A program made the position numbers and the translations under genes. Below, in pieces: positions 1,965 through 31,474 of a DNA stretch of 38,187 nt (position 1 is its first letter; the number at the start of each line of letters is the position of its first letter). Under the pieces are notes generated by a model, which saw nothing but the letters and a program-made list of their open reading frames with translations, ran no database searches and had not been told where the DNA came from. The stretch is from contig NATV01000089.1 in NCBI GenBank assembly GCA_003094535.1, positions 1 through 38,187 on the forward strand, in the 5' to 3' direction. The stretch is from a gamma proteobacterium symbiont of Ctena orbiculata (GTDB lineage: Bacteria > Pseudomonadota > Gammaproteobacteria > Chromatiales > Chromatiaceae).

Positions 1965-1998
1965 AAAAAAGGCCTAGCAGAAACCCGCTAAGCCTTTG
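1965..1998 (-). terminator. Rho-independent terminator of tRNA-Lys
   Basis: On the minus strand AAAGGC-TTAGC and GCTA-GGCCTTT pair across a short loop with one mismatch. They are followed by a run of T (TTTTTT) at 1970-1965. It starts eight bases after the encoded CCA of the tRNA. Confidence 0.8.
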
Positions 1999-2005
1999 AT
2001 TTATA

Positions 2006-2081: not shown

Positions 2082-2166
2082 GAAAATTCGAACGCGCAAT
2101 ACTACCCTAGAATCATCCCCGAGTGAACCCCATCTTGTATCAATAATGCTCATTTTCCCGGCGGGG

Positions 2167-3207: not shown

Positions 3208-3251
3208 CTCTTGTGTCTCTTTCTTGTACCCGGGTAAACAGGAGTAAGGAT

Positions 3252-3276
3252 TTCGACAGATTTTTGTCGAATTATA
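3252..3276 (-). promoter_or_regulatory. -10 box and operator-like dyad of the thioredoxin-fold gene
   Basis: On the minus strand a TATAAT (3276-3271) is followed at once by TTCGACA-N6-TGTCGAA (3271-3252), an inverted repeat with 7-base arms. The dyad would cover the transcription start, a repressor-like position. No clear -35 box was seen. Confidence 0.4.
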
Positions 3277-3376
3277 GTCTCTGAGAGGGGTAAACGACCC
3301 TGGAATGGATGACGTATTTTTGGCGCTAGTGGGATTTTTATGATTTATACCATTGTATTTATTAACTTTTTGTAAA

Positions 3377-3393
3377 TTGGCACGCCTTTAGCA
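3377..3393 (+). promoter_or_regulatory. Sigma-54 (-24/-12) promoter of the diguanylate cyclase
   Basis: TTGGCACGCCTTTAGCA matches the consensus YTGGCACGNNNNTTGCW with one mismatch in the -12 element. It has the diagnostic GG-N10-GC spacing. The predicted start near 3404 leaves a leader of only about 15 bases before the ATG at 3419. Confidence 0.6.
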
Positions 3394-3418
3394 TCAGTAA
3401 GATTGAGATTAGCCTTGA

Positions 3419-4354
3419 ATGAGCTTTTTTACCATGAGCGGCATCTACAGCACACCACAGAAACCTTCCTCCTCTTCCGGGCGGATGTCACACCAATCAG
3501 CGGTGATGGATAGCACCCTGGGTCTGGTATTGGAACTGAGTGGAAAACTGCAGACCACCCTCGAGGTGGATAGTGTGATTGAACTCTTTGCCGATCTCAT
3601 CCTGAGACAATTTCAAACCGATACCCTCAACTATCGTTCCAAGGATGGCGCTATTGCCATCCAGTACGGTGAGAATCCGGAAAGGAACAGGCTGGAATAC
3701 GATCTGAATGTGATGGACAGCGCACTCGGCACGATCTCCGTGAGCCGCAAAAAGCGTTACAAGAAGATCGAGATCCAGCAGATCGAGAATCTTCTCTCCG
3801 CTCTGCTCTATCCTCTGCGTAATGCACTGCTCTATCGGGCAGCCATCGAAAGCGCCTTTATCGACTCATTGACAGGCGTGAAAAACCGCAGCGCCTTCGA
3901 TGCCAACTTCAGTCGCGATATCGAGTTCAACCGTCGCAAGCAGAGCGACCTGTCGCTGCTGGTACTGGATATCGATTTTTTCAAACGAATCAACGATCAG
4001 TACGGCCATGCAGTGGGTGACATGGTGCTGAATGAGATCGCCGCCACCGTGGAGCGGACCATTCGCAGCAGCGACGCCCTCTACCGCTACGGCGGCGAAG
4101 AGTTCGTCGTCGTCCTTAACGATACCAACATCGAAGGCGCCAAGCTTTTGGCAAGGCGTATCCGCCGCAATGTGGAGAACCTGCGCATCAAGGGTCTTAA
4201 GGATCTCCGCATCACCCTCAGCGTGGGCGTCACCGCCTTGGTTGAGCAGGACACGCCGCAGAGTCTCTTCGAACGCGCGGACGGCGCACTCTACCAGGCC
4301 AAGGAAAACGGACGCAATCAGGTGGTCACCGCGGAGATTCCGTTACTGAGCTGA
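3419..4354 (+). CDS. Diguanylate cyclase (GGDEF) with N-terminal GAF-like sensor
   Basis: The protein has 311 residues and no membrane segment. Residues 25-140 form a GAF-like region. The C-terminal half is a GGDEF domain opening with DSLTGVKNRSAF, with the active-site loop YGGEEFVVVL. An RSSD sequence five residues before GGEEF is a canonical product-inhibition (I) site. It should make c-di-GMP from two GTP in the cytoplasm and be feedback inhibited. The start at 3419 lacks a strong Shine-Dalgarno; ATG codons at 3434 or 3486 are alternatives. A sigma-54-type promoter lies just upstream. Its 3' end overlaps the convergent glycosylase gene by 29 bases. The input signal is unknown. Confidence 0.88.
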   Translation: MSFFTMSGIYSTPQKPSSSSGRMSHQSAVMDSTLGLVLELSGKLQTTLEVDSVIELFADLILRQFQTDTLNYRSKDGAIAIQYGENPERNRLEYDLNVMDSALGTISVSRKKRYKKIEIQQIENLLSALLYPLRNALLYRAAIESAFIDSLTGVKNRSAFDANFSRDIEFNRRKQSDLSLLVLDIDFFKRINDQYGHAVGDMVLNEIAATVERTIRSSDALYRYGGEEFVVVLNDTNIEGAKLLARRIRRNVENLRIKGLKDLRITLSVGVTALVEQDTPQSLFERADGALYQAKENGRNQVVTAEIPLLS

Positions 4355-5000
4355 GTGTCGGATAGACACAGAGATCGAACAACGGACAGTCTCCGCAAAC
4401 CGGTCTCGTCCTGCAATACGCCTTGGCATGGACCACGATCAGGGCATGATATTCATTGAAGAGTTCGCTTTCGCTGTCGAGTGCCGCTTCAAAACCCTCA
4501 CGCAACGCATCGTAGCCGTGCTTGCCATCGACCAGTCCCAGACGGCTGAACAGCCTGCGGGTATAGGCATCGATGACAAACACCGGCCGGTCGAAGGCAT
4601 AGAGTAGGATATCGTCTGCGGTCTCCGGTCCGATGCCGTGAACCGTGAGCAGGGATGCGCGCAGCTGTTCCGTCTCCAGCCGCTCCAAGCCCTGATGCTG
4701 TTGCAGAAAGCGGCAAAGGTTGAGCAGGCGTTTCGCCTTGATATTGAAATAGCCCGCCGGACGCAGGGCTGGAGCCAATCTCTCCACCGGCATGGCGAGC
4801 AGGGATTCGAGCGCAAGCCCCCCATCCATCGCCTTGAGATTGGCGATTGCCTTCTCAACATTCGACCAGGCCGTGTTCTGGGTCAGGACGGCCCCCACCA
4901 TCACCTCGAAAGGGGTCTCCGCCGGCCACCAGTGCTGGGTGCCGTAACGCTCGAGGAGTCGACCGTAGATCAGCATCAGGGAGTCAGTCCCGAACTTCAC
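4326..5000 (-). CDS. Endonuclease III-related DNA glycosylase (COG2231 type)
   Basis: This is a helix-hairpin-helix GPD base-excision protein. The HhH is [16 protein letters not shown] and the catalytic Asp lies in [12 protein letters not shown]-terminal 4Fe-4S loop reads [16 protein letters not shown]. The position of the AP-lyase Lys of E. coli Nth (GRKTA) is Glu (GPETA), as in the COG2231/MagIII-like branch. That suggests a monofunctional glycosylase for damaged bases rather than a true Nth. I chose the GTG at 5000 because it overlaps the rluB stop as GTGA. A GTG at 5036 (236 residues) and an ATG at 4976 are also possible. It is the last gene of the rluB operon and convergent with the diguanylate cyclase. 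Confidence 0.82.
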
Positions 5001-5938
5001 CTCGATCGACCGGGTCCGCTGCGTCTGCCTTTCCACGGACTCTTTTCATCGCTCCCGGAGCGCTTGCCCGGTCCCGTTTTCCTGCCTTTCCCACCCTCGG
5101 CAGACTTGGCCGGTTTTGCCACTTTGCGTTCCTTGCGTCGACGCTGCGGGGCGCTGGCTCGAGATTTGGCCGGCTTGACGGCCTTGTGGCCCATGGTGGC
5201 GAGCAGTTCGTTGATCTCCCCTTCACCGAGGTAGCGCCAGCGCCCCACCTTCAGCGCGCTTTCGAGAAACACACTGCCGTAACGCACCCGTTTGAGCCGG
5301 CTGACCCTGGCGCCCACCGCCTCCCACATCCGTCTCACCTCCCGTTGTCTGCCCTCCATGATCACCACGTGAAACCAGCGATTGATTCCCTCGCCCCCCG
5401 ATTCCACGATCTCCTCGAAACGGGCGGGACCATCCTCCAGCTCCACCCCGTGGGTCAATGCCTTCAGCTGCTCCTCGGTGACTTCGCCCATCACCCTGAC
5501 GGCATATTCGCGCTCAACCTGGCGGCTGGGGTGCATCAGTTGATTGGCCAGTTCGCCGTCGGTTGTCAGCAGCAGCAGACCGGAGGAGTTGAGATCGAGG
5601 CGGCCCACCGGGATCCAGCGTCCGTGCTTGAGCTTCGGCATGCGGTCGAACACGGTGCGCCGGCCTTCCGGATCCTTGCGGGTCACCAGCTCGCCCTCCG
5701 GCTTGTTGTAGACGATCACCTCGCGGGTCGGCGTCTCGAGCAGGCGTTTCGCGATCCGCTTGCCATCCACGTAGATGACGTCGCTGGGCTCGATCCGCTG
5801 TCCCAGCTCGGCGACCACGCCGTTGACCTCAACCCGGCCCTCCACAATCCACCCCTCGATCTGGCGCCGCGAACCCATGCCTGCATTGGCCAGGACCTTT
5901 TGCAGGCGCTCGCCGCTCCGCCCGCTACTCTGACTCAT
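4997..5938 (-). CDS. rluB: 23S rRNA pseudouridine(2605) synthase
   Basis: The protein has about 313 residues. The N-terminal S4 RNA-binding domain starts [19 protein letters not shown]. It is followed by the RsuA-type catalytic domain with the nucleophilic Asp in [15 protein letters not shown] long Lys/Arg-rich tail of about 55 residues ([18 protein letters not shown] and onward) follows, typical of RluB and probably rRNA-binding. It modifies helix 89-93 region uridine in the large subunit. The frame is open further upstream but the true start is the ATG at 5938: it matches the family N-terminus and overlaps the scpB end by 14 bases. The scpB-rluB arrangement is common in gammaproteobacteria. 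Confidence 0.92.
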
Positions 5939-10232: not shown

Positions 10233-11102
10233 CTACACAGCCTTGCGGGATGCAGATCTATCGCTATCGATTACCCAGTTCGACCACAGGGGTGTGCAGT
10301 TGTCGGGCAGCATCGGCAATCGTCCCAGCTCGATCCAGGGATTCTCAGGGGAGTGAAAATCGGAGCCCGCCGATGCCAGCAGGCCGAAGTCCCCGGCATG
10401 CTTGGCCATGGTGAAATAGTCGTCCCGGTTATGGCTGCCGGAGACCACCTCGATCGCCTCGCCGTTGAGTTCGGCAAACTCGGCGAATAACCGCCGCAGC
10501 TTCGTCCGGGTCATTCGATAGCGCGCGGGATGGGCCACCACGGCCACCCCCCCCGCCCCATGGATCCACTCCAGGGCCTGATCCAGTTTGGCCCATTGGC
10601 CGGGAACGAAACCGGGCTTCCCCTTCACCAGGTAGTGTTTGAATACCTTGCGCTCATCGCTCACCACACCCTGTTCGACAAGGTAGCGGGCGAAATGGGT
10701 GCGGCTCACCAGGGTACCGTTGGAGCGGGCGAGCGCGCCTTCGTAGGCATCGCTGATGCCGGCCTTCTCGAGTCGCTTCGCGATCTCCTTCGCGCGCCAA
10801 TCGCGAAAGGACCGCAATCCGCTCAAGCCCTGTTGCAGGGCGGGATTGTCACGATCCACGTTGAGACCGAGGATATGCACCGTCTGGCCGTTCCAGGTCA
10901 CCGAGACCTCCACCCCCGGAATCAACATCAGGCCACAGTCGAGCGCTGCCGCCGACGCCTCCTCCAGTCCGGAAGTGGTATCGTGATCGGTCAATGCCAA
11001 AACCCGTACCCCCGCAACGGCTGCACGGCATACCAGTTCCGCCGGACTGAGGGTTCCATCCGAGGCGGTTGAATGGCTGTGAAGGTCGTATACGCAAAAC
11101 AT
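10233..11102 (-). CDS. rnm: PHP-domain phosphoesterase / 5'-3' exoribonuclease (RNase AM)
   Basis: The protein has 289 residues from ATG 11102 (MFCVYDLHSHS). PHP metal motifs are DLHSHSTASDG, LTDHDT, the PGVEVS strand, VVAHPARY and AGSDFHSP. E. coli Rnm/YciV removes nucleotides from the 5' end of short RNAs, matures the 5' ends of rRNA and hydrolyses 3',5'-bisphosphonucleotides. All metal-binding motifs are present. A longer frame back to 11132 would need a TTG start and is unlikely. The ATG has no Shine-Dalgarno; a TACAAT ends eight bases before it, so the mRNA may be leaderless. It heads the operon towards yciO. Confidence 0.9.
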   Translation of the reverse strand: MFCVYDLHSHSTASDGTLSPAELVCRAAVAGVRVLALTDHDTTSGLEEASAAALDCGLMLIPGVEVSVTWNGQTVHILGLNVDRDNPALQQGLSGLRSFRDWRAKEIAKRLEKAGISDAYEGALARSNGTLVSRTHFARYLVEQGVVSDERKVFKHYLVKGKPGFVPGQWAKLDQALEWIHGAGGVAVVAHPARYRMTRTKLRRLFAEFAELNGEAIEVVSGSHNRDDYFTMAKHAGDFGLLASAGSDFHSPENPWIELGRLPMLPDNCTPLWSNWVIDSDRSASRKAV

Positions 11103-11110
11103 GGGGGCGG

Positions 11111-11116
11111 ATTGTA
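11111..11116 (-). promoter_or_regulatory. -10 box of rnm (possible leaderless start)
   Basis: On the minus strand TACAAT is followed by eight bases and the ATG of rnm, with no ribosome binding site between. Confidence 0.4.
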
Positions 11117-11188
11117 CCCATAGTGGGGTCAAACCGATAGGCTTGTTGAAAAAATCCCCGGACAGCCCCGGACGCCGGCAAAACAGGC

Positions 11189-11197
11189 TGATACAAT
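11189..11197 (+). promoter_or_regulatory. Extended -10 box of the 11205 gene (possible leaderless start)
   Basis: TG-A-TACAAT is an extended -10 element. It ends seven bases before the ATG at 11205, leaving no room for a Shine-Dalgarno. Confidence 0.4.
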
Positions 11198-11204
11198 AGC
11201 GCCC

Positions 11205-11945
11205 ATGCTATTTCCCATTCTCGATCTCACCTATATCGGAGAGCGTTTCGACGCCATCGCTCCGGCGCTGGTATCGGCTGGAAAAGAGGCCGGGGTCAAA
11301 GATCCGGACCGCTCTCCATGGGCACTGCAGCAGGCGATGCATCGGCTGATGGAACTGATGGGAATACTGGTCGGGCAGCTCGAGTCCGGCAGCGAGACAA
11401 CCGACGGATCACTGGATGAGCTGAGCGAGCTCGGTGACTACGGCATCCAGCTCCTGGTGGATTTCTCCACCGTCGCCGCCGGTCTGGAGATGCCGCAGGA
11501 GAGCGAGGAGATGGAAGACATTACCCTCCCGCTGGCGTTGTGGATCGTTCGCCACAGAGGCGAACTGCGTACCCTGGCGCCTGTGATCAACTCCCTTGCC
11601 AGACTCGCAAACAGGTTTCGGGAACCATCTCAACTGCAGCAACTCTATGTCCTGTCGGTTGAGTTGATTGAGGCCCTGGAACCGCTGATGCAAGCACAAC
11701 GCCCGGATAAGGCTCACCCCTGGAGTATCCTGTTGATGAATCAGGCTATAATTGCCACCCGCAGCCACCAGCCGGAATTGATCGATCAGGCCTATGAGAC
11801 ACTTTGCCGTCTGCTTCCTGATCAGGCGTCCGATTTTTTTCGTGAAGGAATGGAACAGATGGACGCTTTGAACTATCCACAAAAAGTCAGGGAAGTTGTT
11901 GAAAAATATTATAATCTTTGGAGTCAGCCCAGGATATTGCACTAG
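11205..11945 (+). CDS. Conserved alpha-helical protein of unknown function
   Basis: The protein has 246 residues and I do not recognise a family. It is predicted soluble, almost wholly helical, and rich in Leu, Glu and Gln, with no signal peptide, membrane span or catalytic motif. It begins MLFPILDLTYIGERFDAIAP and ends NYPQKVREVVEKYYNLWSQP, a structured-looking terminus. It is divergent from rnm with about 100 bases between start codons. Both genes have a TACAAT box seven to eight bases before the ATG. Composition matches its neighbours, so it is probably a native lineage gene. No function is proposed. Confidence 0.75.
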   Translation: MLFPILDLTYIGERFDAIAPALVSAGKEAGVKDPDRSPWALQQAMHRLMELMGILVGQLESGSETTDGSLDELSELGDYGIQLLVDFSTVAAGLEMPQESEEMEDITLPLALWIVRHRGELRTLAPVINSLARLANRFREPSQLQQLYVLSVELIEALEPLMQAQRPDKAHPWSILLMNQAIIATRSHQPELIDQAYETLCRLLPDQASDFFREGMEQMDALNYPQKVREVVEKYYNLWSQPRILH

Positions 11946-17323: not shown

Positions 17324-20208
<2,885 letters not shown>

Positions 20209-20212
20209 GAGA

Positions 20213-23200
20213 TTAAATTGCGGCCAGTTGTGCCGCCTCCTCCACGTCGACAGTGACCAGGCGCGACACGCCCGGTTCGTGCATGGTGACCCCCGAAAGC
20301 TGATTGGCGATCTCCATGGTGATCTTGTTATGGGTGATGAAGATGAATTGTACCTGATCAGACATGTCCCTCACCAAATCGCAATAGCGACCCACGTTGG
20401 CATCGTCCAGCGGCGCATCCACCTCGTCGAGCATGCAGAAAGGGGCGGGGTTGAGCTGGAAGATGGCGAACACCAGGGCCACCGCGGTAAGCGCCTTCTC
20501 ACCACCGGAGAGGAGATGGATGCTGGTATTGCGCTTGCCAGGGGGCCGGGCCATCACCGTCACCCCGGTATCGAGCAGATCCTCGCCCGTCAGCTCCAGG
20601 TAGGCGTGACCGCCGCCGAAGAGCCGGGGGAAGAGCTCCTTGATACCCGAATTGACCTTGTCGAAAGTCTCCTTGAAGCGGGTTCGTGTCTCGCGGTCGA
20701 TCTTGCGGATCGCATTCTCCAGGGTCTCCAGGGAGCGGGTGATATCCTCGTGCTGTTCATCCAGATACTTCAGCCGCTCTGACTGCTCCTGATACTCGTC
20801 GATTGCCGCCAGGTTGATGGGGCCCAGGCGCTGGATACGGTTCGCCAGCCGCTCCGCCTGTTCCTGCCAGGCCTCCTCGGTAGCCTCCTCGGCCATCCCC
20901 TGGAACAGCTCCTCCGCGTCCAGCCCTCCCTCATGCAGCTGCTCCTGCAGGGTCATGCAGCGGACATTCACCTCCTGACTCTGCAACCGCGCCTGGTTGA
21001 GTCTCTCCTGTCGCGTCTGTACCTCCTGCTCCGCGGTGTGGCGCTGCTGCTCCTTGTCGCGAAGATTGGCATCCACCTCTTCAAGCAGACGGCGGGCCTC
21101 GTTCAGGCTCTTGTCGACACCGCTGCGATCGGAGAGTTTCTGGTTCAACATCACCAGCTGCTGCTGCAGCGGCGCCTCGCTGTTGTCCAGGGTGGTCTTC
21201 AACTCATCCCGACGATGGCTGAGCTGAGTCAGCTGACTGCCGGCCCGTTCCAGGTTCTGCACCAGCGCGGTATGGGCGGTACGCATCGATTCGACCCGCA
21301 GCGCCACCTCATGGGTCGAGGAGCGCTGCCGGTTGAGGCGTTCTCTGGCCTGGGCGACCTGTTCACGCAGTTCATCACGGCGCTTCACCAGCGATTCGCG
21401 GCGACTGCCCAGATTCTCGATCGCCTCCAGCGCCTCGTGGAGCCGCAGTCGCGTCTCCTCCATCAGCTCTTTATCGTTGCTGATCTGTTCGGCGATCTCC
21501 CTCTGTTCCTGCTGCAGCTGTTCACGCCGCTGCCGGAGGTGATCGGCACGGGTTCGTTTACTGCTCAGATTGGAACCTATTTCCGAGAGTATCCGATTGA
21601 CCTGGTTGAAAGCACCCTGGGCCTGCTCCCGGTTGTGCTCGGATTGTTTGAGCATCTCCCTGCCCTGTTCCAGGCTTGCGGCGAGTTCGGAGACCGTCTG
21701 TTCCTGTTCCACGAGGGCCTGTTTCAGGTTGCGCAGTTCCTCCTCTCTGGCCAGGACACCGGCGCGCTCATCGGATTCACGACTGACTTTCAGCCAGTCG
21801 GGGCCGATCCAGAAACCGTCGGGGGTGACCAGTGTCTCACCGCTCCCGAGCGATTGACGCCGGGCAAGGGCATCGTGGAGATTGTCCGCCAGCCTCACCC
21901 CCCCCAGCAGGGACTGCAGGTTCCAGGGCGATGCGACCTTGGCGATCAGGGTATCCCCGCCAGCGGGGTCTGCGTCTCCGCGATGGCCGCGGCTCTGCCA
22001 AAAGTTGAGCGAGCCCTTTTCGAGTTGAGGCAGCTGCGCCTGCAGCCGTCCGATGTCATCCACGCAGACCGCCTGCAGGTGAAAGCCCAACACAAGCTCC
22101 ACTGCCTGCTGCCAGCGCGGTTCCACCTTGATCTCCTGGGCCAGGCGTTTGGCGCTGTTCAGCTGGCTTCTCTCGAGCCACTCGACGGTTTCGTCCTGTT
22201 GACCGAGGGCCGCCTGCTGCAGGGCCTCAAGGGAGGCCAGGCGTCCTTTTTTGGATTGTAGATCGACACGGGCCTGATCGAGACGGTTCGCGGTCTGACT
22301 GTTCTTTTCCCGCTGCTGATTGATCAGCTCAACGGCCTGATCGAGTTGACCGTGCAGGGTATCGGCTTCTCCTTTCTGTCGGTTTTCATCGCTTTCAAGG
22401 GCGGTGATTTCACTCAATAGCTGGCTGTCATCCAGGCGTCCCAGCTCCTCGTCCAGGCGTTGCAGACGCCGTTCCAGATTGCCTCCCTGCTGTTCCAGGT
22501 GGTTGATGCGGGTTCGCTCAACCTGGGCGGTTTGCGCCGGTTCAGCGGCCTTCTGGTTGAACTCTTCCCATTCCTGCTGCCAGGCCTGCATTGCCTGTTC
22601 GGCCTCGTGCAGCGCCTGGGACAGCTGCGCCTCCTGGCTGTGTGCTTCATCGAGTTTCGGCTGCTCCTGCTGCAAGCTGGCATTGAGTTCCTGCAAGCGC
22701 TCCTCGTCCTGGGCCTTGTGGGCCTCGGACTCCTGCAGCGCCTGCTCGACCTGTTGCAGATCCTGTTGCTGCTGATGTTGCGAATCCCGGGCAAACTGGA
22801 TCGCCTGCTCAAGGCCGCTTATCTCGGCCCCGAGACTGTAGAACTGCCCCTGCACCTCGTTGAACCGATCGTTCGCTTCGGTATGCCGGTCGCGTTCAGA
22901 CTCTATCTCCGATTCCAACTTTCGCTGTTCGGCAACCGCGGCCTCCAGCTTGTTCTGCAGCTCGGCGATGATGCGCTGACGCTGCTGCAGATCCTGGTTC
23001 AGGGTTCGCCAACGCAGGGCGAGCAGCTCCGCCTTGACCTGGCGTTCCTGTTGCTTCAACTCCTGATACTTTTCCGCGGTGGCGGCCTGGCGCTTGAGAT
23101 GCTGCAGCTGCTTGGCCACCTCTTCGCGCAGATCGGTGAGGCGTTCCAGATTCTCCCGGGTATGGCGGATGCGGTTCTCGGTCTCGCGCCGCCGCTCCTT

Positions 23201-23719
23201 ATATTTCGAGATGCCCGCGGCCTCCTCGAGAAAGCTGCGCAGATCTTCAGGACGCGCCTCGATCAGACGCGATATCATTCCCTGTTCGATGATTGAGTAG
23301 CTGCGGGGTCCGAGACCGGTGCCAAGAAACAGATCGGTGATATCCCGGCGCCGGCAGCGTACACCGTTGAGGTAGTAGAGTGACTGGCCGTCGCGGGAGA
23401 CCTGACGTTTGACCGAGATCTGATTGTATTGGGCATACTGACCGCCCGCCCTGCCATTGGCGTTGTCGAACATCAGCTCAATGGTCGCCGCCCCCACCGG
23501 TTTGCGCACGCTGGAGCCGTTGAAGATGACATCCGCCATCGATTCGCCACGCAGCATCTTGGCCGAGCTTTCACCCATGACCCAGCGCACGGCATCGATG
23601 ACATTGGATTTTCCACATCCATTTGGCCCAACGATTCCGACCAGATTGCTAGGGATCGGCACGGTGGTTGGATCGACGAACGACTTAAACCCGGCGAGCT
23701 TGATTTTCTCCAGACGCAT
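20213..23719 (-). CDS. smc: Chromosome partition protein SMC
   Basis: The protein has 1168 residues, full length. The head has Walker A GPNGCGKSNVIDAVRWVMGE (31 on). Two long coiled coils flank a hinge near residues 515-640. The C-terminal head holds the signature LSGGEKALTAVALVF and Walker B FCMLDEVDAPLDDANV. It is the ATPase that extrudes loops and organises the chromosome, working with ScpA/ScpB encoded at 5925-7569. So the lineage uses SMC-ScpAB, not MukBEF. It starts the operon smc-zipA-ligA. Confidence 0.97.
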   Translation of the reverse strand: MRLEKIKLAGFKSFVDPTTVPIPSNLVGIVGPNGCGKSNVIDAVRWVMGESSAKMLRGESMADVIFNGSSVRKPVGAATIELMFDNANGRAGGQYAQYNQISVKRQVSRDGQSLYYLNGVRCRRRDITDLFLGTGLGPRSYSIIEQGMISRLIEARPEDLRSFLEEAAGISKYKERRRETENRIRHTRENLERLTDLREEVAKQLQHLKRQAATAEKYQELKQQERQVKAELLALRWRTLNQDLQQRQRIIAELQNKLEAAVAEQRKLESEIESERDRHTEANDRFNEVQGQFYSLGAEISGLEQAIQFARDSQHQQQQDLQQVEQALQESEAHKAQDEERLQELNASLQQEQPKLDEAHSQEAQLSQALHEAEQAMQAWQQEWEEFNQKAAEPAQTAQVERTRINHLEQQGGNLERRLQRLDEELGRLDDSQLLSEITALESDENRQKGEADTLHGQLDQAVELINQQREKNSQTANRLDQARVDLQSKKGRLASLEALQQAALGQQDETVEWLERSQLNSAKRLAQEIKVEPRWQQAVELVLGFHLQAVCVDDIGRLQAQLPQLEKGSLNFWQSRGHRGDADPAGGDTLIAKVASPWNLQSLLGGVRLADNLHDALARRQSLGSGETLVTPDGFWIGPDWLKVSRESDERAGVLAREEELRNLKQALVEQEQTVSELAASLEQGREMLKQSEHNREQAQGAFNQVNRILSEIGSNLSSKRTRADHLRQRREQLQQEQREIAEQISNDKELMEETRLRLHEALEAIENLGSRRESLVKRRDELREQVAQARERLNRQRSSTHEVALRVESMRTAHTALVQNLERAGSQLTQLSHRRDELKTTLDNSEAPLQQQLVMLNQKLSDRSGVDKSLNEARRLLEEVDANLRDKEQQRHTAEQEVQTRQERLNQARLQSQEVNVRCMTLQEQLHEGGLDAEELFQGMAEEATEEAWQEQAERLANRIQRLGPINLAAIDEYQEQSERLKYLDEQHEDITRSLETLENAIRKIDRETRTRFKETFDKVNSGIKELFPRLFGGGHAYLELTGEDLLDTGVTVMARPPGKRNTSIHLLSGGEKALTAVALVFAIFQLNPAPFCMLDEVDAPLDDANVGRYCDLVRDMSDQVQFIFITHNKITMEIANQLSGVTMHEPGVSRLVTVDVEEAAQLAAI

Positions 23720-23832
23720 GGGCGGCTAAGATACACCAAAGAGGGGGATTGTTACAGAGCGCAATTCAATTTTTTACACATTAACTATATGCTGTAACTT
23801 ATTGTTTTTAATGATTTATGGAAGCAATGCTT

Positions 23833-23859
23833 TTGACTGGGTCAAGGCTCGAGTATAAT
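23833..23859 (+). promoter_or_regulatory. Sigma-70-like promoter of queF
   Basis: TTGACT (23833-23838) and TATAAT (23854-23859) lie 15 bases apart, or 16 if TTTGAC is used. The spacing is short but both boxes are strong. The queF ATG is at 23894. Confidence 0.5.
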
Positions 23860-23893
23860 TCATCGCCATTTTAGCGACGAGACGAAGAAGACC

Positions 23894-24283
23894 ATGCCCA
23901 GTCAGCCGAGCAAAGCACTTGAAACCTTCGACAACCCCCAGCCGGAGAGAGACTATACCATCCGCATCAGGATCCCGGAGTTCACCTGTCTCTGCCCCAA
24001 GACCGGGCAACCCGACTTTGCCGAAATGACCCTGGAGTATGTGCCCGATAAGCGCTGCGTGGAGCTGAAAGCGTTGAAGATGTACGTCTGGTCCTTTCGC
24101 GATCAGGGCGCTTTCCACGAGGCGGTCACCAATGAGATCCTCAGCGACCTGGTCAGCGCCACCCAACCCCGCTTCATGCGCCTCACCGCCGAGTTCAATG
24201 TGCGGGGTGGAATCTACACCACCGTGGTCGCCGAACATCGAGCGGAAAATTGGACCTCGCCCCCCGCGGTAAGCCTGCCCTGA
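23894..24283 (+). CDS. queF: NADPH-dependent 7-cyano-7-deazaguanine reductase (preQ0 reductase), short form
   Basis: The protein has 129 residues, the unimodular type I (Bacillus-like) form. The catalytic Cys34 and Asp41 lie in [13 protein letters not shown]. The QueF motif is [21 protein letters not shown], and [10 protein letters not shown] is near the end. It reduces the nitrile of preQ0 to the amine preQ1 for queuosine in tRNA. The following kinase starts nine bases later, so the two are probably co-transcribed. Confidence 0.95.
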
Positions 24284-24292
24284 CAGCCGTCG

Positions 24293-25570
24293 ATGAAAAT
24301 CTACATCGGTATCGACCTGGGCACCTCCGGTTGCCGTGCCGTCGCCATCGATGAAACCGCCACCATCCGGGCTAGCGCAAGCAGATCCCTGCCGAAACCT
24401 GAAACACCGCTGCAGAATCAACACCAGCAAGATCCAGAAATCTGGTGGCAGGTCCTGTGCGAAGTGCTTACGGAGATCGCCAGGGTCTGTAGTGAAGAGA
24501 GTCCGGTGGCGATTGCCGTGGACGGCACCTCCTCCACCCTGCTGCTTGCTGACCACCAGGGTAACCCCCTGACCCCCGCGCTGATGTACAACGACAACCG
24601 CAGCCATGATGCGCTGCCGTTGCTCGAAGGGATCGCCCCTGATGGGAGTCCTGTATTGAGCCCCTCTTCCAGCCTCGCCAAGCTGCTCCATCTGCGACGC
24701 AAGATCGCCACCGATCGCTATCGCGCCCTCCACCAGGCCGACTGGATCGTCGGCAGGCTGTGTGGCGACTATCGCCATAGCGATGAGAACAACGTCCTGA
24801 AAATGGGGTACGACCCGATCAGCAGGGCCTGGCCCACCTGGTTGGCCGAGCTGCAGCTTCCGGATGGCGCCCTCCCCGAAGTGGTACCGAGTGCGTCCCC
24901 CGTCGGTCGCCTCTGTCGGCAGGCCGCGGAAGCCACCTCGCTCCCACCTGGGATAGCGATCGTTGCCGGCACAACCGATGGCAATGCGGCCTTCTTGGCC
25001 ACCGGCGCCCGTGACATCGGCGAGGCGGTGACCTCTCTCGGCAGTACCCTGGTGGTAAAGATCCTTTCCGAGGAACCGGTATTCGCCGCCGAATATGGTG
25101 TCTATAGTCATCGCCTGGGAGCGCGTTGGCTGGTAAGCGGCGCCTCCAACAGCGGCGGCGCGGTCTTGGCGAGCTTTTTCAGTTGCGATGAGATGGCGCG
25201 AATGACCCGGGATCTGCAACCGCAGCGGGCCACCGGGCTCGACTACTATCCCCTGCTCGCAGCCGGTGAACGCTTCCCAGTCAACGATCCCGACTACCCG
25301 CCCCGTCTGCAGCCGCGACCGGCAAATGATCGGCTCTTCTTTCAGGGGATGCTCGAAGGCATCGCCAACATCGAGGCGGAGGGATACCGCCTGCTGCAAA
25401 GGCTCGGGGCAGCGAGATTAAAACATGTCTATTCCGTCGGTGGCGGTGCGAAGAATGAGCCCTGGCGCCAGATTAGACAACAGCGGTTGCAGGTACCGGT
25501 GATCCCGGCAGCGCATCATGAGGCTGCCTACGGCACTGCCCTGCTGGCGATGCATGGCGTTACGGAGTGA
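24293..25570 (+). CDS. FGGY-family sugar kinase (D-ribulokinase-like)
   Basis: The protein has 425 residues with an actin-like ATPase fold. The phosphate-1 region is GIDLGTSGCRAVAID, followed by AVDGTSSTLLL and MYNDNR. The catalytic Asp is expected in AGTTDGNAAFLATGA. The adenosine motif SVGGGAKNEPWRQIR is near the C-terminus. The shorter size and MYND segment resemble the cyanobacterial/plant SePSK/AtXK-1 branch, which phosphorylates D-ribulose rather than D-xylulose. Substrate assignment is inferred. It may supply ribulose-5-phosphate. Confidence 0.82.
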   Translation: MKIYIGIDLGTSGCRAVAIDETATIRASASRSLPKPETPLQNQHQQDPEIWWQVLCEVLTEIARVCSEESPVAIAVDGTSSTLLLADHQGNPLTPALMYNDNRSHDALPLLEGIAPDGSPVLSPSSSLAKLLHLRRKIATDRYRALHQADWIVGRLCGDYRHSDENNVLKMGYDPISRAWPTWLAELQLPDGALPEVVPSASPVGRLCRQAAEATSLPPGIAIVAGTTDGNAAFLATGARDIGEAVTSLGSTLVVKILSEEPVFAAEYGVYSHRLGARWLVSGASNSGGAVLASFFSCDEMARMTRDLQPQRATGLDYYPLLAAGERFPVNDPDYPPRLQPRPANDRLFFQGMLEGIANIEAEGYRLLQRLGAARLKHVYSVGGGAKNEPWRQIRQQRLQVPVIPAAHHEAAYGTALLAMHGVTE

Positions 25571-25595
25571 CAACCCACAGACCCTGGTCTATATA
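25567..25595 (+). promoter_or_regulatory. Promoter of the DUF2235-MBL-CHAT block
   Basis: GTGACA (25567-25572), 17 bases, then TATATA (25590-25595). The -35 box overlaps the stop codon of the kinase. This gives the block its own start about 45 bases before its first gene. Confidence 0.5.
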
Positions 25596-25644
25596 AAATG
25601 GAACACTGAAGAATAAATCGATAACAGACCACGGAGCAGGCAGG

Positions 25645-26802
25645 ATGCGAAGAATCATAATTTGTCTCGACGGAACCTGGGCAAGTCCCGACAACCAGGT
25701 GGAGAGGGGGGACGGCACCGAGGTCCACAAACCCTCCAATGTGCTCAAAACCTACCGCGCCGTCCTGCCCCGCTCAGAGGATGGCATCGATCAGATCTCC
25801 TACTACGACGAAGGCGTCGGCGCTCTCTCGGCGCAGCGTGGATTGCGCAACAGAGCCCTGGCCAAACTCGACTCCCTGCTGGGCGGCGCCTGGGGCGCGG
25901 GATTTGAGCAGAACATAGAGGCCGCCTACAGCTTCATCGTCGGTAACAAACTGCCCGAGGATGAGATCTTCGTCTTCGGTTTCAGCCGAGGCGCCGGCCA
26001 GGCGTGCAGCCTCTGTCGTTTCATCGACTGGATGGGCGGCATGCTGCACAAGCGAGACGCCTATTTCATTCCCGACTTCTTCAAGCACTATATCGACACC
26101 GAGGGTGGCGCCGACGCCGCGCAGGATTTTAGGCAGGCGCTGATCGCCGGCGGCAAAAAGATCGAAGCGCCCATTCCAACCCGGGTACGCTTTCTCGGCG
26201 TCTACGATACCGTGCTTGCACTGGGTTCGCGTCTACGCGCCGACTTCGACAGAGAGGAGCGAACCACGGCCCCCGGTCTCGGTTTTCACGTCGGCGATAA
26301 ACCGCCCGCTATTGTCGACATGGCCAGGCAGGCCCTGGCCATCGACGAGCGCCGTACCGATTTCCGTCCCGAGATCTGGCGCCACACCCATCCCGGTCAA
26401 TCGGTGGAACAGCGCTGGTTCCCCGGTGTGCACACCAGCATCGGCGGCGGCTATGCCAACGACGGCCTCGCCAACGGGGCATTGCACTGGATGGTCAATG
26501 CCGCGAAGCAGGAGGGGCTTGAGGTTGATGATCAATTCCTCGGCTTCTACAAGCCCTGGTTCGGCGATACCCGAAACGACTCCTTTACCGGCTTCATGAA
26601 GCTACGTGGCTGGATTCGGGAGCTTGTGGGCGAGAGCGGCGACCGCGACCTGGTCGCCACCGCGGACCATGCCGGCATCGATGTCCACGATTCGGCGATC
26701 AAGCTGCTTGTCCACGACGACAGCTACCGGCCCGACAACCTGCTTGCGCTGATCCATCAGCGACCGGATCTGCTGGCAAGACTGCCGGCGGGCATCATCT
26801 AG
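25645..26802 (+). CDS. DUF2235 alpha/beta hydrolase (Tle1-like phospholipase fold)
   Basis: The protein has 385 residues. It begins MRRIIICLDGTWASPDN, the typical DUF2235 opening. The nucleophile elbow is GFSRGAGQA with Ser114. Candidate Asp is in GVYDTVLALG, and the His lies in PGVHTSIGGGYAND. All three triad members are in place. The fold is that of Tle1 phospholipase effectors. Here it has no signal peptide, no PAAR/VgrG neighbour and no immunity gene next to it, so type VI delivery is not supported. It precedes the metallo-hydrolase by 53 bases. A ribosome site (AGCAGGCAGG) precedes the ATG. Confidence 0.85.
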   Translation: MRRIIICLDGTWASPDNQVERGDGTEVHKPSNVLKTYRAVLPRSEDGIDQISYYDEGVGALSAQRGLRNRALAKLDSLLGGAWGAGFEQNIEAAYSFIVGNKLPEDEIFVFGFSRGAGQACSLCRFIDWMGGMLHKRDAYFIPDFFKHYIDTEGGADAAQDFRQALIAGGKKIEAPIPTRVRFLGVYDTVLALGSRLRADFDREERTTAPGLGFHVGDKPPAIVDMARQALAIDERRTDFRPEIWRHTHPGQSVEQRWFPGVHTSIGGGYANDGLANGALHWMVNAAKQEGLEVDDQFLGFYKPWFGDTRNDSFTGFMKLRGWIRELVGESGDRDLVATADHAGIDVHDSAIKLLVHDDSYRPDNLLALIHQRPDLLARLPAGII

Positions 26803-26855
26803 GCCGGTCTCTGCTGTTGGATATCGAACAATGAAAATAATGAGGAATATCGGTA

Positions 26856-27953
26856 ATGTTCAGGCTTGAGATCCTCCCCGCGCGCTACGGCGACTGCATA
26901 TTACTGGAGTACGGCTCCGATCCGGTGCGGCGCATGCTGATCGATGGCGGTGCACCCGGTGTCTATAAAAGGGCGCTGAAACCCAGGCTGAAAGAGCTTG
27001 CGGATGATGAGCGCGATTTTGAACTGCTGGTGATCACTCATGTTGACTATGATCATATACGCGGCATCATCGAGCTGGCCCATGATGACTCCTTGCCATT
27101 CAAGGCCAAGGATATCTGGTTCAATGGTTTTCGCCACCTTCCGAAACCGCCGGGCCCCAAGATATTGGCCGGGAAACATGGCGAGGAGCTCACGGACCTC
27201 ATATTGAAAAACGGTCACAGTTGGAATAGTCATGGCTTCAATGGCAATGCGGTTGTGATACCGGAAAATGGAGATCTCCCCCGCATCGTGTTCGATGATA
27301 TGACGGTCACCCTGATGGCGCCCACGCTGCCCATGCTCGCAGATCTGCGCAAAGACTGGGAAAAATCATGCGAGGATATCGATATCACACCGGAAGAGTT
27401 GGAGAAAGCAAGGTCGGAGGGAAAGTTCGCGTTGCTCGGGGATGAGGAGCAAAAGGCGCCTGAAAAGGCGCGCCCGGACATTGAGCAGCTGCTGAGGGAA
27501 GAGTATACAGAGGACAACTCATCCGCCAACGGCAGCAGTATCGCCTTCCTTGTTGAATATGCCGATTACCGTGTGCTGCTTGCAGGTGATGCACATCCGA
27601 GTACGTTGGTGGAATCGATCAAGCGACTTGGAGAGGAAAGGCTAAAGCTTGATTTCTGTAAACTTCCCCACCATGGCAGCCGGGGCAGCGTCAGCAGCGA
27701 GCTGATACAACATCTTGATTGCGAAAACTATATCTTTTCCAGCAATGGCGATCAGTTTCGACACCCCCACCCCGAAGCGGTTGCGCGCGTTATCGAATAC
27801 GGTGGCGAGTGTCCCAATCTGCTGTTTAACTACAGGACCCGGTGGACGGAAATATGGGATGACAAGCCCCTGCGCGACGCCTACGGTTATGAGACTCGCT
27901 ATCCCAAGAAAGAACAGGACGGCCTGACTATCGTGAACGGTGAATGCCAATGA
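26856..27953 (+). CDS. ComEC-like metallo-beta-lactamase-fold protein
   Basis: The protein has 365 residues. The metal motif HVDYDH (62-67) is the HxDxDH variant of the usual HxHxDH. It is followed by LLAGDAH (Asp245) and LPHHGSRG (His272/273), as in the C-terminal domain of ComEC. A charged insertion (about residues 165-220) lies between. There is no membrane segment, so it is soluble. Such proteins occur beside caspase-like and CHAT proteins, where they may hydrolyse a nucleotide or nucleic acid signal; that is inference. A GAGGA site lies before the ATG. Its stop overlaps the CHAT start as ATGA. Confidence 0.85.
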   Translation: MFRLEILPARYGDCILLEYGSDPVRRMLIDGGAPGVYKRALKPRLKELADDERDFELLVITHVDYDHIRGIIELAHDDSLPFKAKDIWFNGFRHLPKPPGPKILAGKHGEELTDLILKNGHSWNSHGFNGNAVVIPENGDLPRIVFDDMTVTLMAPTLPMLADLRKDWEKSCEDIDITPEELEKARSEGKFALLGDEEQKAPEKARPDIEQLLREEYTEDNSSANGSSIAFLVEYADYRVLLAGDAHPSTLVESIKRLGEERLKLDFCKLPHHGSRGSVSSELIQHLDCENYIFSSNGDQFRHPHPEAVARVIEYGGECPNLLFNYRTRWTEIWDDKPLRDAYGYETRYPKKEQDGLTIVNGECQ

Positions 27954-29692
27954 AATCCGTGCTAGTTGAATTTACCCGCTTCAACGATCTGGCTACCGGC
28001 GTGCTGCGTAGCGGGGATGAGTATCTGAGGACGATCAAAGACAATCCTGTTCAGCAGGTGCGCATGGAGATCGACCAGATAGATTTCAACGACACGATCA
28101 AAAAGCTGCGCTACGCCACCCACGATGAAACGGAGCGTAAACAGGCGTTGAACAAGCTTTCAACGCTTGTCTCAAATCTACTAAGACGCCACGAAGACCG
28201 AAAACAACAACAGAAGCTGCTTGAACTTGTCACCGGCAACCCCGATGCCGAAGCGGAAGATCTGCTGCGCTTGGTCAAAGAGATTCAACAACGCGAGAAA
28301 AGTAATACGCTCGAAGAAGGCCCCTTGTTAGCAGAGCTGGGCAAGGACAGCGATTCACTCCTGCAGGTCGATCTGGTTACCAACTCGGCGGAACTTTCGG
28401 CGCTTCCCTTCGAATCTGCTCTCTCCGAGGACGGTACACCCTTGTTCCTGCAAGGCAAGGGGGTTGTCCTGACGCGCCGGGTACGTGGTGAATTCAATGA
28501 AACTCTACCCGAATGGCAGGAAAAACCTCGAGTACTGTTTGCCTGGTCTGAAGCGGGGGGCGCCGTACCTCATGACCTCCACTATGAAGCGTTGTTGCAA
28601 GCCCTCGAGATGTGGTTACCGAAAACAGATGTCGAATCGGTACTTTTTGAGGTAGGCAACGCCAAACTCAGGCAGATCGAAGCGGCTGCAAAGGAGGGAA
28701 ATTTCACGCATATTCATTTACTGGCACACGGCAGTCAACTAAAGCATGACGACGACCAACGCTTCGGTATCGCGCTGGACCACCCCATTGAAAAAGCCGA
28801 TGTGGTATCGCCGGAACAGTTGTCCAAGGCACTTGCCGGTTCGCGATCCAGCGCAGTCGTCGTTACATTGGCCGCATGTGACGCAGGCAATGAAAATGAT
28901 GTAATCAATCCCGAGAAGAGCCTTGCCCGACAGCTTCATGTCTCTGGCTTTCCGGTGGTGATAGCCTCGCAGCTACCGCTAACGGTGCCTGGCGCGAATA
29001 TTCTGGTAAAACACTTTTATGAGGATCTTTTCGAGGGACTTGATCTACGGGAGGCATTGCATCGAACCCGCGTCCAGCTCTACAGACAGAGTGAAGACAC
29101 AGGACATGACTGGGTAAGTCTTGTGGGGTATGTCCAGTTGCGTGAAGGCTATGCTGATTACCGGCTCAAAGCCCAATTCAAGATTCTGCGAAACCTGAGC
29201 GCCAAGGCTGAGGCATTAGCCGGAAGCGGCGCTCCCCTCGAACAGTTTTCAACCATCGTCGAGAAGCTGAAAATTCGAATCCAATCCCTGAACAGTCTAC
29301 TCCAGGAGACACACAACCTCCAGGCCCTGGACGAAAATCGTGGACTCCTGGGGAGTGCGGAAAAGCGTAGGGCTGAGGTTTTGTTCAGGCATCTCGGAGA
29401 CGACGACAGCATGCGGGAATCGCGCCACGCCCTTGCAGAGGCGTACAGATGGTACGAGGAGGCGTTTGCCGCCAACCCGTCCCATCATTGGAGCGGTGTG
29501 CAGTATCTTGCCCTGCAGGCGGCACTGAAAGGCACGGTGGACCGAAATGACTGGAAAACCGCCTATCGCGCCGCCGAGGTAGACCGAAAGCGTCCCGATG
29601 AGTACTGGGCACTGGGCTCGCTAACGGAGCTTGCGTTGCTGAGTCGTTTAATTGACGAACCGACGGACGATACCGCGGAAGTCTACCTGTAG
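27950..29692 (+). CDS. CHAT-domain caspase-like protease with C-terminal helical region
   Basis: The protein has 580 residues from the ATG at 27950 (ATGA overlap with the upstream stop; GGTGA six bases before). An ATG at 27944 is less likely. The first 140 residues are helical. The CHAT domain spans about 140-400 with the catalytic His in IHLLAHGSQ (about 260) and the Cys in TLAACDAGNEND (about 310). The expected FPVVIASQLPLTV follows. The C-terminal 180 residues are helical, with HHWSGVQYLALQAAL and RPDEYWALGSLTELALL resembling the TPR-like TRAFs-binding region of other CHAT proteins. CHAT proteins are cysteine peptidases in bacterial conflict systems. An amber codon ends it 59 codons early. 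Confidence 0.88.
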   Translation: MKSVLVEFTRFNDLATGVLRSGDEYLRTIKDNPVQQVRMEIDQIDFNDTIKKLRYATHDETERKQALNKLSTLVSNLLRRHEDRKQQQKLLELVTGNPDAEAEDLLRLVKEIQQREKSNTLEEGPLLAELGKDSDSLLQVDLVTNSAELSALPFESALSEDGTPLFLQGKGVVLTRRVRGEFNETLPEWQEKPRVLFAWSEAGGAVPHDLHYEALLQALEMWLPKTDVESVLFEVGNAKLRQIEAAAKEGNFTHIHLLAHGSQLKHDDDQRFGIALDHPIEKADVVSPEQLSKALAGSRSSAVVVTLAACDAGNENDVINPEKSLARQLHVSGFPVVIASQLPLTVPGANILVKHFYEDLFEGLDLREALHRTRVQLYRQSEDTGHDWVSLVGYVQLREGYADYRLKAQFKILRNLSAKAEALAGSGAPLEQFSTIVEKLKIRIQSLNSLLQETHNLQALDENRGLLGSAEKRRAEVLFRHLGDDDSMRESRHALAEAYRWYEEAFAANPSHHWSGVQYLALQAALKGTVDRNDWKTAYRAAEVDRKRPDEYWALGSLTELALLSRLIDEPTDDTAEVYL

Positions 29693-29872
29693 GAACTGAA
29701 ACAAAGGGCAGTGAAGGTTCTCGGTGATGCGGATGCCGCCAACGGCCCCCTACTCTCTACCGGGTTACAGCTGCGCCGCTATGCTGAGTGGTGGCTACCC
29801 AGCAACGGCTTTTTTCCAGGCGGTTCCGGTCTTGCCGATGATGCGCGGAAACTGGTTGCGTTGTTAGCGTAG
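29693..29872 (+). pseudogene. In-frame continuation of the CHAT protein after an amber codon
   Basis: After TAG (29690-29692) the same frame stays open for 59 codons to TAG at 29870-29872. It gives helical, protein-like sequence: ELKQRAVKVLGDADAANGPL, then LQLRRYAEWWLPSNGFF. A single C-to-T change (CAG to TAG, Gln) would explain it. It could be a real truncation, a sequencing or assembly error, or a readthrough codon. Confidence 0.7.
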
Positions 29873-29952
29873 AATCGAAGGCCCATTGATCGGCTCATTC
29901 ACGAATTGAACGACCGCTGTCATGGCTTCCCGTTTGGAGTGGTGAATTTGAC

Positions 29953-30414
29953 TCAATGACGGATATCCGCGTGATTGGAGTTGAGCTGACTGAATCTCAA
30001 CAAAACACGTAACTGACGCATCTCATCTTCGCTCAGGGATCCAGGAATCAACAGCAATGCGGGCTGGCGCCACCCCCGGTCGAGATCGAAACGCAACAGG
30101 ATCAGCCAGGGGGTAACCAGCGTATCCTGGCGGATTCGGGCGACCAGTTTTCGCCCGTCCCCCATGGTGATCCTCGATCTGCCGTCGGGCCTGATTCTGG
30201 CCAGTAGAATCCGACTGCCGCTGCCCTTTCGCGTCTGCCGGTAGGAGAGATAGCTCTGCAGGGTCAGGATCAGCAGCAGCATCGCTCTGTGCCAAGGCAG
30301 CATGGGAGCCAGGAGAATCACCAGTAGCGCCAGCAGATGGATGGCGACAAGCCATGCATGGAGTTTCCGGGACGGCTTGGGCTGTAGCGTTACGGTTTGG
30401 ATATTCCCTGACAA
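29953..30414 (-). CDS. YgfX/CptA-like membrane protein
   Basis: The protein has 153 residues. Two close N-terminal membrane helices (about 19-55: HAWLVAIHLLALLVILLAPM, then AMLLLILTLQSYL) are followed by a small beta-rich domain with RKLVARIRQDTLVTPWLILLRF. The family is linked to SdhE (FAD assembly of succinate dehydrogenase) and, in E. coli, described as a cytoskeleton-affecting toxin. No sdhE is found beside it here. The protein ends near the CHAT tail with about 80 bases between. Confidence 0.7.
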   Translation of the reverse strand: MSGNIQTVTLQPKPSRKLHAWLVAIHLLALLVILLAPMLPWHRAMLLLILTLQSYLSYRQTRKGSGSRILLARIRPDGRSRITMGDGRKLVARIRQDTLVTPWLILLRFDLDRGWRQPALLLIPGSLSEDEMRQLRVLLRFSQLNSNHADIRH

Positions 30415-30571
30415 GATCGACGCCTCCTTGCGTACTCTGAATCGACCTCGAAGTCTATCATGAAGCCTGGCATCAGGTTAAAAATGACCCGCCGCCGTCT
30501 CCAGGTTGATTAATGACTCTCGGGGTCTGCCGCGGAAATCCAGCGCCAGCCCTTCTACCTAGACGGCAGCA

Positions 30572-30592
30572 TTCCCACGCAGGGCGTGGGAA
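30572..30592. repeat. REP-like palindrome
   Basis: TTCCCACGC-AGG-GCGTGGGAA is a perfect 9-bp inverted repeat with a 3-base loop, within ATTCCCACGC...GCGTGGGAACGAT. This exact palindrome is a dispersed intergenic element in many gammaproteobacterial genomes. Only one copy is in this window. Confidence 0.6.
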
Positions 30593-30605
30593 CGATTGAT
30601 CGGGT

Positions 30606-31190
30606 CTACTTGAAACGCTGCTGCCGATGGGCAATCTGCGCAGCGCTGAACTCGTCCGCTGTCACCACACCGTCGCCGTCGCTGTCGATCGAGGCGAAAC
30701 TGGGGGCGTTCGCCAGGTTTCTCATCAGATAGCCCTGGCTGGCCCGCTCGCTGATCCGCTTTGCCCGCGCCTGCTCGAACTCATTCTGTTCCAGAATGCC
30801 ATCCCGGTTCAGGTCGAAGTCGCTGAACGCCGGCATATCGGGCCCACCTCTAACCCTTCTGCCGGGACCCATTCCGCCCCCTCTCATGAGTTGATTTCTA
30901 TGCTGTCCGGCGAGCAACTCCCGCTGCGAAAGCCAACCGTCGTTATTGCTGTCGAAGCTGTGGAACGGAGGTGCCGATACCCTGCCCATGGGATAGCCCA
31001 GTTCAGCTCTCAGCGCCCTTCTTTCCTCATGCACCGACGCAAACTCCTGTTGACTGATCGCTCCGTTTCCATCCCGGTCGAAGAGCGCAAACGGAATCGG
31101 CCCCCCGGCCGTGAGTTGATTTTGCGCAACCAGCAATCCGGGAACCGCCAACAACATACCCAACACAACTGCTTTATCCAACTTCAACAT
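30606..31190 (-). CDS. Exported EF-hand protein (four calcium-binding loops)
   Basis: The protein has 194 residues from the ATG at 31190 (GAGG nine bases before). A frame from 31205 has no ribosome site. The signal peptide covers about residues 1-24 (AVVLGMLLAVPGLLVAQ). Four EF-hand loops follow: DRDGNGAISQQEF, DSNNDGWLSQRE, DLNRDGILEQNEF and DSDGDGVVTADEF, with a Gly/Arg/Met-rich linker (RGGGMGPGRRVRGG) between the second and third. It probably binds calcium in the periplasm. Partners are not evident. Confidence 0.85.
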   Translation of the reverse strand: MLKLDKAVVLGMLLAVPGLLVAQNQLTAGGPIPFALFDRDGNGAISQQEFASVHEERRALRAELGYPMGRVSAPPFHSFDSNNDGWLSQRELLAGQHRNQLMRGGGMGPGRRVRGGPDMPAFSDFDLNRDGILEQNEFEQARAKRISERASQGYLMRNLANAPSFASIDSDGDGVVTADEFSAAQIAHRQQRFK

Positions 31191-31474
31191 GGCTGCAATC
31201 CTCATAGTTTCTGTGTAGAGATGCCATCCTGCACCTGGTGCACAAAGCCAGCGGCAGCCTCCATGCCACCCCGCTACTTTAAGTCTAACGACAGAAGATT
31301 AATCCACGCTGAAAATCGAGAACCCATTGAACTTTGTGACGCTCCATAACCAGGATCGAGGGGTGTCAACCAGTATGATGAATTGGGCAGGAAAGCCGCC
31401 GATTGCGAAAGATGGATTCTCAAATCATCGGCGAAAATTTGCGGTGATTAGCGTTTATTTGCGGCTTGAATCTT

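Follow-up and report, generated by a model that had tools for sequence, protein, structure and literature searches.

Why should a gene for a Tle1-like alpha/beta-hydrolase (DUF2235) stand ahead of genes for a metallo-β-lactamase (MBL)-fold protein and a CHAT peptidase? The question is raised by contig NATV01000089.1 from a gammaproteobacterial symbiont of the clam Ctena orbiculata, which we analysed over its whole length of 38,187 nucleotides (the window). The contig is C89 of the 182 that make up the 4.29 Mb symbiont genome (G000), and among the matches listed in an alignment scan with the MBL-fold protein the closest records bearing a name belong to Candidatus Thiodiazotropha and to symbionts of this clam. 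As the initial annotation of this sequence had described, the three genes follow one another and carry intact active-site motifs. They lie on the plus strand and encode 385, 365 and 582 amino acids with Pfam domains, among them a TPR-S domain that the annotation had not named (Table 1). Its view of a conflict-type module rather than a secretion cassette was also borne out: no VgrG, PAAR or immunity gene was found among the nine proteins scanned at 17324-31205, and the same kinds of neighbour recur in distant taxa. We consider it reasonably probable that the genes form an abortive-infection defence module in which one protease serves two executioners, a nuclease and an exchangeable lipase.

The MBL-fold protein and its probable protease partner

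The MBL-fold protein is best read as a protease-activated pro-nuclease rather than as the signal enzyme that the initial annotation had supposed, because its nearest solved relative is ComEC and its model is confidently predicted with the lowest confidence falling in two loops. It matches the PADLOC models LmuA (5.7e-71), RTasMBL (2.3e-47) and Avs1a (1.4e-45), and its score of 226.7 bits against the NCBIfam Avs1a model lies under the cut-off of 420. ComEC nuclease domains ranked first in a search of the PDB with a profile of 73 MBL sequences. The AlphaFold2 model (pLDDT 89.8, pTM 0.90), for which 72 of the 78 listed rows were aligned with the window sequence (L053, L101, L106, L108, L116 and L121 were dropped), retrieved ComEC 9ic4 as its first match in a fold search (E 1.8e-16). 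Stretches of at least three residues with pLDDT below 50 occur only at positions 101-105, 179-183 and 189-198, and about 130 residues separate two aligned blocks of the protein versus about 60 in ComEC 9ic4.

The main text of Tuck et al. (PMC12799240) presents HamM of Hachiman, Avs1a and CanC of Canu as pro-nucleases with two disordered insertions on which a partner protease acts; these insertions carry a conserved Ile where the protease is trypsin-like and a conserved Gly where it is a caspase. The window protein is an MBL of the Avs1a, LmuA and HamM kind and has intact metal motifs. Between its residues W168 and D220, a Leu, Phe, Met or Ile precedes a Gly in 59 of the 73 aligned sequences, including its own, against 35.4 (at most 47) in shuffles, and in 54 of 68 against 33.1 when five sister rows are left out. 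This enrichment is no more than suggestive of a conserved cut-site residue in the second loop. G109, near the first loop, is present in 71 of the 73 sequences.

CHAT is most likely the activating protease of this protein, because the two co-vary, seem to have been swapped as a unit between this strain and its nearest sister, and form fusions in two further bacteria (L100 and L112; loci are given as L numbers). Across an alignment of 12 CHAT proteins, the catalytic residues H262 and C312 never vary. The correlation between MBL and CHAT distances is 0.96 across 15 loci and 0.95 across a thinned set of 10, a level that none of 2000 permutations reached in either set. The initial annotation had expected the phylogenies of all three genes to agree; this held for MBL and CHAT, whereas the agreement of DUF2235 is local, its correlation with MBL of 0.97 over 9 loci being driven by near versus far loci and its linkage having been gained or lost several times.

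The divergent block emerges from comparison with the nearest sister, L047. DNA identity in 250-base windows is 88-96% up to about position 26968, 56-82% at 26969-29968 and 84-92% thereafter, and protein identity amounts to 95% for the SMC protein, 88% for the kinase, 95% for DUF2235, 81% for MBL and 60% for CHAT (45% over CHAT residues 1-126). One of the two strains seems to have swapped MBL and CHAT jointly, or else the two genes are evolving fast together. Among five close relatives, CHAT residues 1-126 are only 42-48% identical and the neighbouring proteins 62-95%, a divergence that one would expect of a sensor in an arms race.

A close MBL orthologue occurs in 10 of the 22 genomes of the genus, that of the window included, and the order DUF2235-MBL-CHAT is found in L045-L047, L176, L182 and L183. 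The gene order that the initial annotation had expected across taxa is thus kept in sister species, and in distant taxa genes of these kinds are arranged differently. We rejected the idea that the cassette simply inserted into a vacant site: the SMC-kinase pair is retained by 11 sister genomes that lack a close MBL, the kinase is followed by other genes where the stretch continues, and there is no clean empty site. The slot after CHAT in L047 (11099-14167) holds a NACHT protein with an FGE-sulfatase domain, a candidate sensor.

A wider survey places CHAT among several protease partners. The MBL alignment scan of a species-genome collection gave at least 509 confirmed relatives, and within 5 kb of the best 80 the labelled protease is a canu-type caspase in 26 loci (L062 by CanB alone), a protein that we call X in 23, CHAT in 13 and a second caspase type in 6; the remaining 12 have none or another, among them L108, whose opposite strand carries a CHAT gene by Pfam. 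Protease type tracks the MBL tree (100 rows, without L026-L033, L057 and L069), changing 19 times against 57.2 in shuffles, none of 200 as low. Near the window MBL, neither a caspase nor CanB was matched.

Protein X (e.g. L081 5181-7982, and 22 further loci) is mostly 630-970 amino acids long, lies directly upstream of MBL and is fused to it in L116; a patatin gene is present in 10 of the 23 loci, and this patatin-X-MBL group has no name. Three members gave no Pfam match, one member compared with PADLOC and NCBIfam gave none either, and comparing X with CHAT or caspase by profile gave nothing significant (best P 0.1). What suggests a divergent CHAT-like protease is solely the conserved pair H491 and C539, which are 48 residues apart, as against 50 for the window CHAT pair. 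A single subtilase family also occurs beside canu-type caspase-MBL pairs (L009 8087-10579, L085 1-1101, L086 3177-5588), directly upstream of the caspase in L085 and L086. In viral contigs, 17 MBL and 10 DUF2235 loci were found and none was seen with both; no labelled protease or lipase lies beside MBL in L017-L033.

Recurrent linkage to lipase genes

The nearest folds of the DUF2235 hydrolase are 4o5p, which we take to be Tle1, and the phospholipase TleB (9j3f). DUF2235 lies within 5 kb of MBL in 7 of the 80 loci (L045-L048, L088 from Cellvibrionales, L100, L118 from Nitrospirales), which belong to four lineages and include one on the opposite strand (L100); L049, with a remnant, and L115, where DUF2235 is more than 6 kb away, were not counted. 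Patatin is near MBL in 19 of the 80, on the same strand in 18; in 17 it lies upstream on the MBL strand, and 15 of these have it directly ahead of the protease gene. The two lipases never occur together, and one or the other is found in 26 loci. For comparison, the densities in 114 genomes (198 patatin matches; PF09994 in 19 of the genomes, with 22 genes besides that of the window) give chance expectations in 80 windows of 11 kb of 0.56 for patatin and 0.06 for DUF2235, with an assumed mean genome of 2.75 Mb and counts from a single bacterial class, which weakens these figures as support for the module.

DUF2235 accompanies MBL with three types of protease, namely CHAT, caspase and subtilase. 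Two of the arrangements, additional to the 80 loci, are on plasmids: DUF2235-caspase-CanB-MBL in Bradyrhizobium (L009, picked through its MBL match after appearing in both lists) and subtilase-MBL-DUF2235 in Miltoncostaea (L013, picked through its DUF2235 match). Within one MBL clade, the place upstream of the same caspase type is taken by patatin in L089 and L117, by DUF2235 in L088 and by neither in L063 and L090. Same-strand gaps are short, 7 to 56 bases, in L013, L045-L047 and the window.

The window MBL family, CHAT, caspase, X and the same patatin type are all absent from 21 control DUF2235 loci; the controls are the 20 best-scoring places of the class scan outside G000 plus the second DUF2235 gene of G000, and several of the stretches end at contig ends. 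On the DUF2235 tree (47 rows, L048 being too short to include), linkage to MBL was gained or lost five or more times, and the clade of the window protein together with Miltoncostaea comprises 8 rows, all linked to MBL. The second DUF2235 gene of G000 (L187 6291-7391, on contig C111) has no MBL or protease neighbour and is nearest on the tree to that of L088. Control L201 (5861-8512) has DUF2235 beside a different MBL-fold protein, by eye of the beta-CASP type.

Layout of the cassette and its early stop

Table 1. Features of the cassette in the window.
Feature	Position	Strand	Basis
Tle1-like (DUF2235) alpha/beta-hydrolase, 385 aa	25645-26802	+	PF09994 Tle1-like catalytic 3.3e-62
Nucleophile motif GFSRG of the hydrolase	25978-25992	+	Sequence
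MBL-fold protein, 365 aa, likely gated pro-nuclease	26856-27953	+	PF00753 Lactamase_B 3e-10; PADLOC; ComEC
HxDxDH motif (HVDYDH) of MBL	27039-27056	+	Sequence
HHGS motif of MBL	27669-27680	+	Sequence
First low-confidence loop of MBL, residues ~95-106	27138-27173	+	AlphaFold2 pLDDT <50 at 101-105
Second low-confidence loop of MBL, residues 179-198, with Leu-Gly	27390-27449	+	pLDDT <50 at 179-183, 189-198; loop motif count
CHAT peptidase with TPR-S, 582 aa	27944-29692, likelier start 27950	+	PF12770 1.4e-24; PF20308 1.8e-9
CHAT catalytic His (H262, HG motif)	28727-28729	+	Sequence; alignment
CHAT catalytic Cys (C312, AC motif)	28877-28879	+	Sequence; alignment
TPR-S match in CHAT	29276-29515	+	PF20308 1.8e-9
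ATGA shared by the MBL stop and the CHAT start	27950-27953	+	Sequence; sister starts
In-frame TAG, then stretch resembling the C-terminal tail of intact sister CHAT	29690-29872	+	Sequence; sister comparison
Divergent DNA block versus L047 (most of MBL and CHAT)	26969-29968	+	250-base windows

The cassette is flanked on the left by an FGGY-type kinase gene (24293-25570) and on the right by a CptA-like gene (PF07254, 29953-30414) on the opposite strand, which adjoins the cassette also in L046 and L181. A gap of 53 bases separates DUF2235 from MBL. The candidate promoter assigned to the cassette by the initial annotation was not recovered: there is no promoter-like match at 25571-25644, and the region 25400-30000 gives 2 sites elsewhere, compared with 2.3 in shuffles. 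The ATGA overlap of the last two genes was confirmed, and since aligned sister proteins begin at the second Met (MKS...), it also contains the likelier CHAT start.

The end of the CHAT gene needed correction. The first in-frame stop is the TAG at 29690-29692, and position 29872, previously given as the end, is the second. Unbroken CHAT proteins of eight sister genomes have 645-654 residues, and their tail is similar to the sequence that follows the window TAG; the window protein has a complete catalytic part and lacks the last ~60 residues, behind the TPR-S match. Reading of the TAG as pyrrolysine was rejected. As neither of two weak PylS matches in G000 exceeds the cut-off, the TAG should be a genuine stop codon.

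CHAT relatives on Paraburkholderia and Methylobacterium plasmids (L006-L008), 28-31% identical over nearly the full length, adjoin a metallophosphoesterase gene rather than MBL.

Weighing the readings

Several observations weigh against a three-gene module. The hydrophobic-Gly motif is missing in 14 of the 73 MBL sequences, including three of the window's own CHAT clade (L049, L050, L052). No lipase was detected near 54 of the 80 MBL loci; 15 of the 80 have less than 4 kb upstream, and 25 of the other 65 have a lipase. The upstream DUF2235 gene is absent in the sister cassettes L044/L180 (one record) and L181 and, in the comparison with L047, lies outside the divergent MBL-CHAT block. Compared with L046 and L182, CHAT and not MBL exceeds the upstream neighbours in divergence. 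Lastly, the window has no sensor gene adjoining CHAT, and the shortening of CHAT may mean that this copy is impaired or dead, which has no bearing on the family.

In another reading, a TIR enzyme would supply an NAD-derived signal that opens CHAT, and the window copy would have lost the TIR gene or never had one. In type IV Thoeris, a TIR-made NAD-derived signal acts on caspase-like effectors. A TIR link exists in five CHAT loci and is not universal: TIR matches lie near CHAT-MBL in L112, L114 and L118, and in two sister species the gene immediately behind CHAT encodes a fusion of TIR with a Tle1-like lipase, identified by Pfam in L181 (9107-10513) and present as a homologue in L176 (3636-5042). 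In L112, from Bradyrhizobium sp. ARR65, TIR-type genes at 558-5783 (one exceeding the Pfam cut-off, another falling short of it and a third assigned by eye) precede the CHAT-MBL fusion, and a second MBL gene lies on the other strand at 10745-11803. TIR genes are also annotated near the caspase-MBL pair of L015. Against this stand the absence of TIR among the nine window genes scanned and its absence, by eye, from the gene lists of L045-L047, L182, L183 and L050, where the profile scan covered only the NACHT-FGE protein of L047. We regard this TIR-linked reading as rather unlikely.

The lipase is separable from the MBL-CHAT pair, because L044/L180 and L181 lack it upstream and because it stands outside the divergent block. 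The nuclease-protease pair might then be the whole defence, and DUF2235 a separate lipase with its own trigger that rides along like other defence-locus cargo. Its decay fits this account: before the MBL gene of Accumulibacter (L049) only a stretch like residues 1-57 of DUF2235 remains, and in L048 DUF2235 is damaged and CHAT split, the latter perhaps through an assembly fault. Considering (i) the linkage of DUF2235 with three protease types, (ii) its repeated change on the DUF2235 tree, (iii) the short same-strand gaps, (iv) the 15 further loci with patatin directly ahead of the protease gene, and (v) the absence of any such linkage in the controls, we find a mere rider unlikely. It is very improbable that the MBL-fold protein makes or removes a small-molecule signal read by the TPR-S domain of CHAT, which would then activate the lipase as sole executioner: Pfam does name TPR-S a sensor domain, phosphodiesterases are among the enzymes with an MBL fold and phosphorylcholine esterases are the next-best fold matches of the model, but ComEC nucleases are closest in both fold and sequence, a pair of unstructured loops is more in keeping with gating than with turnover of a signal, and many loci have MBL and a protease without a detected lipase.

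Returning to the module with two executioners, we propose the following model. CHAT would act as the switch and would detect an infection cue through its TPR-S domain and N-terminal region. The cue might be a nucleotide signal that a TIR protein supplies, or CHAT might assemble with a STAND protein; genes of both kinds adjoin CHAT in some relatives. Activated, the His/Cys peptidase would cut the two loops predicted to cover the MBL active site, and the cut protein would become a ComEC-like nuclease free to degrade DNA. As second executioner, the Tle1-like lipase would act on the cell's own membrane lipids after release by the same protease or the same cue, and the two together would confer the putative antiphage effect. 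Cleavage of the lipase by CHAT, which the initial annotation had put forward, is possible; the co-variation, the single divergent block and the fusions speak in the first place for an action of CHAT on MBL. More tentatively, we suggest that the architecture is widespread and undescribed, with one sensor protease of the caspase or CHAT kind governing both a DNase gated by loops and a lipase directed at membranes, whereby DNA and envelope would be hit together. The lipase slot would be interchangeable between Tle1-like and patatin proteins, the patatin-X-MBL group would be included, and the TIR-Tle1 fusions would be a further lipase arm.

The nuclease-protease pair is already known in kind. Canu (CanABC; Tuck et al. 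2025, PMC12799240) pairs a cysteine protease with an MBL from this gated family, and many loci on our MBL tree are of its caspase-CanB-MBL type; the window differs in having CHAT with TPR-S in place of caspase and CanB, the protease downstream of MBL, and a Tle1-like lipase upstream. The main text of that paper mentions further protease families without naming CHAT, and a term search of it for CHAT, lipase, patatin and DUF2235 found none; the supplement was outside the search. AVAST type 1 (Avs1a with Avs1b), protease Hachiman and protease Lamassu likewise combine a gated MBL pro-nuclease with a partner protease, and the window MBL matches the Avs1a and LmuA models, yet their proteases are trypsin-like and the Avs1a match is below the cut-off. 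The Tle1 and TleB phospholipases of type VI secretion systems (T6SS) share the catalytic domain and are the nearest solved folds, whereas the window lipase is linked to a nuclease-protease pair instead of VgrG, PAAR or an immunity gene. The plasmid CHAT-metallophosphoesterase loci are alike in a CHAT that aligns nearly throughout and unlike in the upstream gene (annotated in L007; by eye in L006 and L008), and the cassette differs from Thoeris-like systems in the lack of a TIR gene among those scanned. Neither CHAT as the partner nor the recurrent lipase was found in a literature search whose coverage did not extend to most subscription journals, bioRxiv and the PMC12799240 supplement.

If the model is true, protease-activated bacterial immunity extends past a single nuclease target, in parallel with eukaryotic caspase cascades that have several substrates, and phospholipases of the T6SS type could act inside their producer as suicide enzymes. 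A Tle1-like gene alone is no proof of a secretion effector. The idea lends itself to testing through the alternation of patatin and Tle1-like genes and through the fusions of protease with nuclease.

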